64,000 bases of DNA from assembly GCF_028369065.1 (NCBI RefSeq), contig NZ_JAQNDA010000010.1, forward strand, positions 1-64,000, in the 5' to 3' direction. Positions 3,174 to 5,917 of this stretch are shown piece after piece (the first letter of the stretch is position 1; each line of letters starts with the position of its first letter). A program made the translations under genes and the position numbers. This DNA comes from Marinobacter sp. SS21 (GTDB taxonomy: Bacteria; Pseudomonadota; Gammaproteobacteria; Pseudomonadales; Oleiphilaceae). Below the pieces are notes generated by a model. It did not search any database, had not been told where the DNA came from, and saw only the letters and a list, made by a program, of their open reading frames with translations.

Positions 3174-3956
3174 TCACAAAAACGCCGAATCAACCACCCC
3201 TCGACACCCAGGAAACCCCTTACACCCCCAAAACTCCTCCCCAACATTCTCCCCACGCTTAACAACCCGCTTCACCATCTCCCCCTCGCACTTAGGACAC
3301 CGAGGCTCCCTCTCCTTCCTCGCCACAATCTCCCTAACATGCGCCACATGCTCCCGATTAGTCCGAAATGAAGCAGCCAATCGCCCAGACTCAACCCTCT
3401 CAACAACCTCCCTAACCTCACCCTCAGAAAGCACCACCTCCGAATGCGACTTAATAAACCGAATATATCCCCCACCCTGCGTCACATTCCCCGGCATCTC
3501 CGTCTTAAACGTCGAATCCCCCACAAACACCACCAACGAATGCACCTGCTGATCCCCCAACCCCAACAAGCTCTGCAACGTCTTCACATGCTTGTAGTTC
3601 TGATGCAGCGGATTCTGAAACTTCTGCGAGTACTTATAGATCTTCTGCGTCCAATACCGCTGATTGGCACTGCCAAAGATCCACCCCTTCATGTTCTTGG
3701 TTTCCACCACAAACACCCCGTATTGGGAAACGATGATGTGGTCGATCTGGGTGGTGCCGCCTTCGGTGGGCAGGGTGACGTTCTTGATCAGGTGGTAGCG
3801 GTTCTTGTCGAGAAACAGGCGAGCGGAAGCATTGACGAGGAATTCACCCATCTTGCCCTTGAACCAGGGCGACTTGATCACGCCTGCTAGGATGGCAAGG
3901 GGAATCAGATACCAGAGGGCGTTAAAAACAGGCTGAAGAACCGGGGAGTAGTCCAT
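3174..3956 (-). CDS. NERD domain protein with C-terminal zinc finger
   Basis: 260 residues. An N-terminal membrane helix lies at about 10-27. A nuclease-related (NERD) domain spans roughly 33-150, with GKMGEFLV, an IDHIIV motif and VETKNMKGWI, which match the Glu...Asp...ExK pattern of restriction-endonuclease-like folds. A topoisomerase-type zinc ribbon lies at about 219-255 (CPKC...CKGFPGC). NERD proteins are presumed nucleases or DNA-processing factors. The substrate is unknown. Base composition changes abruptly inside the gene: upstream of about 3660 the codons end mainly in C/G as in neighbouring genes, while the 3' part uses T/G-ending codons with many AGG and GGG. This suggests a mosaic origin or imported DNA. 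Confidence 0.8.
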   Translation of the reverse strand: MDYSPVLQPVFNALWYLIPLAILAGVIKSPWFKGKMGEFLVNASARLFLDKNRYHLIKNVTLPTEGGTTQIDHIIVSQYGVFVVETKNMKGWIFGSANQRYWTQKIYKYSQKFQNPLHQNYKHVKTLQSLLGLGDQQVHSLVVFVGDSTFKTEMPGNVTQGGGYIRFIKSHSEVVLSEGEVREVVERVESGRLAASFRTNREHVAHVREIVARKEREPRCPKCEGEMVKRVVKRGENVGEEFWGCKGFPGCRGVVDSAFL

Positions 3957-4196: not shown

Positions 4197-5216
4197 ATGG
4201 AAACCTCCCCCAAACCACCCCGCGTGGTCATCTTCGGTGCCGGTAGCGTGGGCTGCTACCTGGGTGCCCGACTGATGTCGGCGGATGTTGACGTCACCTT
4301 CGTCGGGCGGCCACGGATGCAACAGGTGCTCAAAGCGCATCCACTGCGGGCCACGGATTACGAGGGCTTCCAGTACGAGGCCTACCTCAGCGAGGGCCAA
4401 TACGTGACCACCCCGGAGGCAGCCGCCCAGGCCGATCTGGTGTTGGTGACGGTGAAGTCGGCCGCCACCGAGGAGGCGGGGCGGGCCTTGGCCGAGCATG
4501 TGCGGCCCGGTACGCCGGTGATCAGCCTGCAGAACGGCATTTCCAACGCCGAACGGTTGCGGTCGGTGATGCCTGGTGCCGATGTGCTGGCGGGCATGGT
4601 GCCGTTCAATGTGCTGCAGAAGAGCCCCGGTCATTTTCACCACGGCACCGAGGGGCACCTGATGACCGCGCGCCACTCGGCACTGACCGCCCTGCTACCC
4701 CGATTCATTCAGGCTGGACTGCCGCTGGAGCTGCGCGACGACATGCTGTCGGTGATGTGGTCCAAGCTGCTGCTCAACCTGAATAACCCTATCAATGCCC
4801 TGAGCGGAGTGCCGCTGCTGAAGGAGCTGTCGCAGCGGGATTACCGGCGCTGTCTGGCGCTGGCGCAGGAAGAAACCCTGGCGTTACTGAAGGACGCCAA
4901 GATGCCGTTGGTCAAGCTGACCGGTGTGCCGATGGCACTGATTCCCAAGGTCATGCGGCTACCAGACTGGCTGTTTACCCGGTTGGCGCGAACGATGCTG
5001 GCCATCGACCCCCTGGCCCGTTCCTCCATGTGGGAAGACCTGGAAGCTGGCCGCCCGACCGAGGTGGACTGGATCAATGGTGAAGTGGTACGCCTGGCCG
5101 GTTCGCTGGGGCAACAGGCCCCGATCAACGCGCGCCTGACCGAGCTGGTGCGTGAGTGTGAGCAGCAACGGCGCAGCTGGAGCGGTGCCGACCTGCTGCG
5201 GGCATTGACCCACTAA
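4197..5216 (+). CDS. panE: 2-dehydropantoate 2-reductase
   Basis: 339 residues of the ApbA/PanE family, which reduces ketopantoate to pantoate with NADPH in cytosolic pantothenate and CoA synthesis. The Rossmann nucleotide-binding motif GAGSVGCYLG lies near residue 15. The C-terminal helical domain carries the family's WSKLLLNLNNPINAL segment, with the catalytic Lys and the substrate-binding Asn. Length is slightly above the usual 300. The ATG follows GGAGA. Paralogues with uncertain substrates exist in many proteobacteria, so the exact substrate is less sure than the family. About 240 bases separate it from the divergent NERD gene and should hold both promoters. Confidence 0.8.
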   Translation: METSPKPPRVVIFGAGSVGCYLGARLMSADVDVTFVGRPRMQQVLKAHPLRATDYEGFQYEAYLSEGQYVTTPEAAAQADLVLVTVKSAATEEAGRALAEHVRPGTPVISLQNGISNAERLRSVMPGADVLAGMVPFNVLQKSPGHFHHGTEGHLMTARHSALTALLPRFIQAGLPLELRDDMLSVMWSKLLLNLNNPINALSGVPLLKELSQRDYRRCLALAQEETLALLKDAKMPLVKLTGVPMALIPKVMRLPDWLFTRLARTMLAIDPLARSSMWEDLEAGRPTEVDWINGEVVRLAGSLGQQAPINARLTELVRECEQQRRSWSGADLLRALTH

Positions 5217-5276
5217 AGCCGCATCGACCAATTAAAGGCAAATCACTCTCATTTGCAGGCGATAGGATTACAGCGT

Positions 5277-5343
5277 TGTAAGCCAAATCGCACACGGCCA
5301 ATCAGCAATGTCCTGTTTGCCCCAAGCCCCGTATCCGTAGAAT
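5277..5343 (+). promoter_or_regulatory. GacA-box-like site and promoter of the GGA-repeat RNA
   Basis: TGTAAG (5277-5282), six bases, then CGCACA (5289-5294) resembles the GacA upstream activating sequence TGTAAG-N6-CTTACA that controls rsmX/Y/Z genes in pseudomonads. The second half matches at four of six positions. A -10 like TAGAAT lies at 5338-5343, with only a weak -35 (TTTGCC, 16 bases upstream), as expected for an activator-dependent promoter. The box centre lies about 64 bases before the predicted start near 5350, close to the spacing known for GacA-controlled sRNA promoters. Confidence 0.55.
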
Positions 5344-5349
5344 AGCAAT

Positions 5350-5520
5350 TGTCAGGGATGACATGCCTGCAAGGACGCAGGTTCAAGGATGAAAGGACTG
5401 ACTCACAGGATGTGGGTCAACAGGGATGATGGCCAAGGATTGGCTAGGCCTGAAGGAACAGGCGTTTGGTTGGCTACGGATAAGGAACACAGGGACAGTG
5501 ATCCTGTCCGAGCCCCCTTT
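5350..5520 (+). ncRNA. Predicted CsrA/RsmA-sequestering sRNA (CsrB/Rsm type)
   Basis: This intergenic stretch is a chain of small hairpins with GGA in the loop: 5350-5363 (loop GGGA), 5366-5381 (AAGGAC), 5382-5393 (AGGA), 5400-5418 (AGGAT, seven-pair stem), 5432-5444 (AGGAT) and 5448-5463 (AAGGAA). More GGA motifs lie between them at 5395, 5424, 5478, 5484 and 5493. Loop-presented A(N)GGA is the binding site of CsrA/RsmA, and arrays of it define the CsrB, RsmY and RsmZ sRNAs that titrate this regulator. A closing stem pairs GGCT and CGGA (5472-5480) with TCCGAGCC (5507-5514), followed by CCCTTT, and would serve as terminator. There is no reading frame with a credible start. Being upstream of the comEA-like gene, it could instead be a long 5' leader. 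Confidence 0.75.
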
Positions 5521-5635
5521 CTGGTGGTTCTATTCGCCGAGCATTTCTCCCAGATCCCCCTCCACTGAAGGATACAGCCCTCCTCAGACTTGGGTCGCGC
5601 TGACGCCCGTACCAATTCTATTCAGGAGACTTTGT

Positions 5636-5917
5636 ATGACCCGTAATTCGCTGTTGGCCACTTTGTGCCTGGTATTGTGCCTATTCACCGGCCTTGCTCA
5701 CGCCGAGCCGGAGATGACCGACCATCCGATCAATATCAATACCGCCACGGTGGAGGAGCTGCGTGCGCTGGAGGGCATCGGCGAGAGCAAGGCCCGCGCC
5801 ATCGTTGCTTACCGTGAAAACCATGGCCCGTTCCAGAGCGAGGCCGAACTGACCAATGTGCGTGGCATCGGCGAGCAGATCCTCAGCAAAAACACCCCGC
5901 GTATTACCCTCGAGTAA
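5636..5917 (+). CDS. ComEA-like helix-hairpin-helix periplasmic protein
   Basis: 93 residues. A signal peptide (residues 1-22, ending AHA) is followed by a helix-hairpin-helix domain, ININTATVEELRALEGIGESKARAIVAYR and a second GIGEQIL turn. This matches the small ComEA proteins of Gram-negative bacteria, which bind incoming double-stranded DNA in the periplasm. Whether this species is naturally competent cannot be judged here, and no other com or pil genes are near. The ATG at 5636 follows AGGAGA. The frame is open further upstream, but that part overlaps the GGA-repeat RNA and carries no family similarity. Confidence 0.85.
   Translation: MTRNSLLATLCLVLCLFTGLAHAEPEMTDHPININTATVEELRALEGIGESKARAIVAYRENHGPFQSEAELTNVRGIGEQILSKNTPRITLE

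Follow-up and report, generated by a model that had tools for sequence, protein, structure and literature searches.

A predicted CsrA-titrating RNA upstream of comEA in the genus Marinobacter

The window analysed here is a stretch of 64,000 nucleotides from Marinobacter sp. SS21 (contig NZ_JAQNDA010000010.1, positions 1 to 64,000). In it, a ketopantoate reductase family gene and a comEA-like gene, both on the plus strand, flank a GGA-rich segment in which an earlier note, made from the letters of the DNA, had proposed a small RNA that titrates CsrA/RsmA. The features of the locus are collected in Table 1. The 5′ end of the RNA lies probably at about 5350, a position suggested by relatives at which the first hairpin is complete. 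The panE/apbA-like gene stands upstream in 6 of 121 loci (66 loci were covered by only 250 nt upstream). Elsewhere in the window, on the minus strand, positions 544–2985 encode an 813-residue AAA_13 protein (PF13166, 500.7 bits), which is matched very strongly by PDC-S06, a PADLOC model of a candidate defence system (1083 bits), and resembles PrrC weakly; adjoining it, positions 3174–3956 (minus strand) encode a protein that combines a NERD domain with a zinc ribbon of the topoisomerase type, the latter scoring just under its cut-off.

Table 1. Genes, predicted RNA elements and promoter elements at the locus (window coordinates)
Feature	Position	Strand	Remarks
Ketopantoate reductase family gene (panE/apbA-like)	4197..5216	+	PF02558, PF08546; upstream of the RNA
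Inverted repeat TTACAGCGTTGTAA	5268..5281	+	Fits an additional half-site, conserved in part (consensus gct.ACa....tGTa; 76 of 120 loci), that runs into the GacA box
GacA/UvrY-type box TGTAAGCCAAATCGCACA	5277..5294	+	2 mismatches to TGTAAGN6CTTACA; starts at −73
GCAATGTCCTGTTT	5305..5318	+	Counterpart, matched by eye, of the conserved promoter element gcgaat.TCcgaTt
−10 element TAGAAT	5338..5343	+	87 of 121 loci have the exact sequence no more than 22 nt from the start
Predicted CsrA/RsmA-titrating small RNA	5350..5522	+	173 nt; 11 GGA including 10 ANGGA; ends judged from relatives, 3′ end least certain
Hairpin 1, loop GGA	5350..5363	+	Fold; consensus helix 1, 98.3% of cells paired
Hairpin 2, loop GGA	5365..5382	+	Fold; consensus helix 2, 97.1% of cells paired
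Closing stem (5391–5396 with 5516–5521)	5391..5521	+	Window's own fold; absent from the genus consensus used for covariation
Hairpin 3, loop GGA	5399..5419	+	Fold
Hairpin 4, loop GGA	5430..5446	+	Fold
Hairpin 5, loop GGA (GCCTGAAGGAACAGGC)	5448..5463	+	Fold; consensus helix 6, 100% paired, 2 double-change pairs
Hairpin 6, long 3′ hairpin, GGA in the apical loop	5472..5514	+	Fold; consensus helices 7 and 8, 97.7% and 92.2% paired
comEA-like gene (helix-hairpin-helix protein)	5636..5917	+	PF12836, 75.4 bits

The minimum-energy fold of 5350–5522 (plus strand) is a chain of hairpins with GGA in six loops (at 5356, 5373, 5408, 5437, 5455 and 5493) and free GGAs in the linkers. In this predicted fold the probability of being unpaired exceeds 0.95 for 8 of the 11 GGAs; the linker GGAs at 5387 and 5424 are almost always unpaired, the one at 5395 is mostly paired (probability of being unpaired 0.35), and those at 5478 and 5484 are paired within the long 3′ hairpin. 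The stability of the fold of 5355–5525 corresponds to a z-score of −3.3, and none of 200 shuffled sequences was equally stable. The 173 nt at the locus hold 10 ANGGA motifs, compared with a maximum of 5 in any 173-nt stretch outside it on either strand of the 64 kb. The earlier description of six GGA-loop hairpins with further unpaired GGAs is thus borne out by the fold, its stability and the ANGGA density, and folding, a check that the earlier note had proposed, agrees with it; the closing stem it described is likewise present in the window's own fold, though outside the consensus that we used for the genus. Many (A)NGGA motifs in loops and linkers, as in CsrB/Rsm-type sRNAs, recur in the relatives, where the RNA has a median length of 202 nt: across 121 genomes we counted 5–14 ANGGA (median 10) and 6–17 GGA per RNA.

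A DNA search found a single copy of the locus in the own genome and, when that genome is counted, the core of the RNA in 40 of 61 genomes. A covariance model made from 29 of 30 aligned sequences (one divergent row, L045, was excluded) detected the RNA in 121 of 124 Marinobacter genomes, among them all 110 of good quality; the three genomes without a match are 62–82% complete. The counts over 121 loci include one of the two copies in genome G082 and a copy without comEA in genome G084; 16 starts were taken from a blastn anchor and the others from the model, and several of ten weak loci, when inspected, turned out to be longer RNAs clipped by the model, with misplaced starts. For identities and the promoter consensus we used the 76 of 120 loci with typical length and start, in which mean pairwise identity is 0.73 for the RNA, 0.71 for the comEA coding DNA and 0.27–0.48 for the flanks. 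The RNA is also present in one genome from another genus of the same family (G307), where comEA follows it and a panE-like gene precedes it.

Base pairing is kept in 93.4% of the cells of an alignment that was built without structure, the weakest consensus helix being helix 5 (73.7% paired). When the partners were shifted by 1–3 columns, pairing fell to 22–40%, a control in which the structure is favoured because it was drawn from the consensus. Changes on both sides were observed in 14 of 43 pairs (mean of 5.3 in shuffles, 0 of 500 of which reach 14); the compensatory stem changes whose absence would have counted against the earlier claim are therefore there. The segment also appears to be non-coding, as had been claimed: each of the six frames contains a stop in 105–117 of the 121 genomes, and the comEA frame is open from the start of the RNA to the start of comEA in 0 of 120 loci, while some plus-strand frame is open across the whole RNA in 31 of 121 genomes. 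Conserved structure and absence of coding capacity are thus found together, as in CsrB/Rsm-type sRNAs. In the present genome the comEA frame is open back to position 5426, inside the RNA (5426–5635, plus strand), so that automated gene calling could produce an erroneously extended ComEA of 163 residues.

In 107 of 121 loci the sequence that best fits the GacA/UvrY-type pattern TGTAAGN6CTTACA begins at −73 and departs from the pattern at 0–4 positions. Boxes with at most two mismatches occur in 69 of 121 loci, versus 3 of 1210 shuffled upstream sequences (single-base shuffles, 10 per locus); the best box has four or more mismatches in 23 of the 121. At two mismatches the own genome contains the pattern 26 times and the reversed control 56 times, so that a single match means little and the evidence lies in the fixed position in relatives. 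Two further two-mismatch boxes, both on contig C14 of the own genome, lack a nearby GGA chain (at most 4 ANGGA per 173 nt) and were set aside. A generic scan of 5100–5750 reported no sigma-70 promoter, and its sole terminator-like site was hairpin 5, inside the RNA. A box of the same type, TGTGAGAGATCTCTTACA, is described upstream of E. coli csrB (PMC4682653). The genome encodes one CsrA (91.1 bits). Over residues 1–52 it is identical to 1vpz, a CsrA homolog of solved structure; among these residues are L4 and R44, which a figure legend of PMC7652899 highlights. Immediately before uvrC lies the gene of a GacA ortholog (294.6 bits; cut-off 280). The regulatory parts that accompany CsrB/Rsm-type sRNAs, namely an upstream GacA/UvrY box, GacA and CsrA, are thus found in this genome.

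The check with Rfam models that the earlier note had proposed yielded no match in the window at gathering score. The best match, PrrB_RsmZ (RF00166), spans the full length of the model and scores 25.2 bits, below the curated cut-off of 44; RsmY (RF00195, cut-off 57 bits) gave no match at the locus at E up to 10, and CsrB and CsrC gave none to the Marinobacter RNA at gathering score. No Rfam family of any kind was matched in 5 loci of the comEA-side RNA at E up to 0.1 or in 10 loci at gathering score. The RNA is therefore of the CsrB/Rsm kind, but it is not a recognised RsmZ, RsmY, CsrB or CsrC. Some other Rfam matches in the own genome were read and rejected, since by eye they lie at gene ends over terminator-like hairpins: RsmZ matches on contigs C5 (two, overlapping on opposite strands) and C27, and an RsmY match on C9. 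This reading covered the matches just named; RsmZ also matches on C26 and C12, and RsmY has other matches. Among weak matches of our own model outside the genus, those in G321 and G323 look by eye like chance, the one in G354 is GGA-rich and the one in G279 partly so; the stretches examined in these four genomes contain no comEA match. The G354 sequence (L172, contig C1, 119460–119733, minus strand) comes from another family of the order and is possibly an independent CsrA sponge.

Weak additional matches of the covariance model also led us to a second GGA-rich RNA family, R2. Fourteen extra regions were read: six were poor in GGA and dropped (G016, G022, G030, G086, G121 and the second match in G074), six gave the R2 family, and the others were those of G084 (contig C34) and G307. 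A model made from six R2 sequences matches 121 of 124 Marinobacter genomes, with 108 matches among the 110 of good quality; three of these are weak, short matches. Outside the window, the own genome has a sponge-like R2 sequence (L289, contig C23, 16296–16501, minus strand, 148.4 bits), directly 3′ of which a hairpin with a T run is seen by eye. In the loci from the 30 best-scoring of the 121 genomes, counted without shuffles, a box with 1–3 mismatches is found at −185 to −188 in 30 of 30 and an intrinsic terminator in 28. Rfam yielded no family in 9 R2 loci at E up to 0.1, nor in 20 at gathering score, the own R2 included. The two RNAs have in common a nearly identical 5′ hairpin (CGTCAGGGATGACAAG in the majority of copies read), the type of box, the genus and richness in GGA (14–15 in 10 of the 30 R2 loci). 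They differ in that R2 has its box at about −186, an intrinsic terminator and other neighbours, vanZ-like genes and, in relatives, mnmH-like genes (names assigned by eye).

An intrinsic terminator is usual for CsrB/Rsm-type sRNAs but does not define them. For the comEA-side RNA, a scan for simple hairpins with loops of 3–8 nt placed terminator-like hairpins between the closing stem and comEA in 14 of 120 loci, not above chance (53 of 600 shuffles); in 16 of 121 loci an 8-base stretch close to the 3′ end contains at least six T. We file the RNA as a new member of the CsrB/RsmZ kind and note the absent terminator as an exception.

The earlier note had also pointed to comEA, suggesting either a tie between carbon-storage regulation and DNA uptake or simply a conserved locus. 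The adjacency is real: comEA follows the RNA on the same strand in 120 of 121 loci, at a distance of 58–246 nt (median 111), and did so in 30 of 30 loci of an earlier sample, the own one included. In a survey of comEA, which 271 of 293 genomes of the order match, the 30 best-scoring loci were fetched, and the region upstream of comEA contained 7–11 ANGGA per 200 nt in 12 of 12 Marinobacter loci versus 1–3 in 18 of 18 others. Fifteen of 80 named loci were examined as well: three from Marinobacter had 9–11 ANGGA per 200 nt before comEA, and 12 from outside the genus had 2–5 anywhere on the strand, some of these stretches ending at contig ends. Together with G307, the survey therefore indicates that the link is confined, among the loci examined, to Marinobacter and one related genus. 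In G082 the duplicated RNA-comEA unit (L291, contig C1, 677000–679700) adjoins what by eye is a ClpB/ClpV-type ATPase-like gene.

Covariation, fold, the fixed GacA-type box, the CsrA and GacA genes and conservation throughout the genus all support the claim of a CsrA/RsmA-titrating sRNA, and we consider it highly probable that the locus encodes a Csr/Rsm-type sponge RNA, predicted to be driven by GacA and to work beside a second sponge RNA. Phosphorylated GacA would bind the box at 5277–5294 and switch on a promoter with its −10 element at 5338–5343, and an RNA of about 173 nt would be made from near 5350. Its eight exposed GGA sites would bind several CsrA dimers and thereby withdraw CsrA from its target mRNAs, allowing expression of the genes that it represses. 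The RNA would act alongside the second sponge RNA encoded elsewhere in the genome. That the GGA chain is instead a product of chance or of unrelated repeats, such as a repeat array or coding sequence, is hardly credible given the single copy in the own genome, the compensatory changes, the occurrence throughout the genus, the fixed position of the box and the stops in each frame in most relatives.

Since no terminator beyond chance was found before comEA, the sponge may double as a comEA leader. This extension of the sponge reading says that the comEA mRNA has the RNA as its 5′ portion, both coming from one GacA-driven promoter, that the sponge acts in trans, either processed or still attached, and that comEA output rises with GacA. 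In its favour are the same-strand position close before comEA in nearly all loci, promoter-like scores that, like terminators, are not raised in the gap, comEA following each of the two RNA copies in G082, and the 18 comEA loci examined from other genera, in none of which such a chain was seen; Xanthomonas RsmU (PMC7694677) and a comEA-like RNA of P. putida (PMC7937890) offer parallels. However, the gap is poorly conserved (mean pairwise identity 0.35, versus 0.27 far upstream, in 76 of 120 loci) and holds a short conserved element, cCtG.c...Acg, that could be a comEA promoter of its own; in G084 a full-length copy has no comEA within the 800 nt examined, a shortened copy standing before comEA; and Rho-dependent ends or processing would give the same picture. 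We regard the extension as possible but doubtful, and slightly more doubtful still the full statement that, with the sponge in the comEA 5′ leader and at least some transcripts spanning both, one GacA-driven promoter makes both a global CsrA antagonist and a DNA-uptake protein. If true, a dual-function mRNA leader would couple the Gac/Csr switch to competence across the whole genus. Much less probable is a leader that acts in cis, the GGA chain being a CsrA-binding 5′ UTR with a role in comEA regulation but none in CsrA titration. The position upstream of comEA would suit it, CsrA does act on leaders such as that of pgaA (PMC7652899), and 98 of 120 loci have an AGGA no more than 16 nt from the comEA start, a place at which CsrA might bind too, although this motif is common in ribosome-binding sites anyway. 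Still, the RNA ends at least 58 nt before comEA, its number of GGA and ANGGA motifs is seemingly beyond the need of control in cis, R2 with its terminator shares the 5′ hairpin and the box, and the G084 copy has no comEA nearby.

No publication on Csr/Rsm sRNAs of Marinobacter was among the matches listed in our literature search, which covered 20 of 184 and 25 of 284 matches to its two most direct queries and in which subscription journals are thinly covered. In the second of these sets a single listed paper names Marinobacter, PMC5864184, and to judge by its title it deals with Alteromonas. The two RNAs, their boxes and the covariance models make the Gac/Csr circuit of the genus directly testable.

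Among known systems, RsmZ/PrrB (RF00166) resembles the Marinobacter RNA in its chain of GGA hairpins, and control of RsmZ by GacA has been published (PMC2375449); its model has 133 positions, compared with the longer Marinobacter RNA, which lies beside comEA. Another Rsm RNA, RsmV of P. aeruginosa, is placed at 1011621–1011812 of PAO1 (PMC9308961). CsrB and CsrC of E. coli likewise carry many GGA sites, and csrB has a UvrY box upstream; that box is centred at −183/−182 (PMC4682653), whereas the Marinobacter box starts at −73. Also tied to comEA is RsmU, an RsmA-sequestering RNA of Xanthomonas (PMC7694677). RsmU is processed from the comEA 3′ UTR and in the cited text is reported only in Xanthomonas, whereas the Marinobacter RNA lies upstream of the gene and has its own GacA-type box. 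In P. putida a comEA-like RNA is listed among Rsm-bound RNAs (PMC7937890). The known comEA-linked Rsm RNAs, including that of P. putida, are parallels and, by any test applied here, not homologs. With comEA coupled to a predicted sponge on one side in Marinobacter and to RsmU on its other side in Xanthomonas, one may ask whether CsrA titration and DNA uptake have been linked repeatedly.
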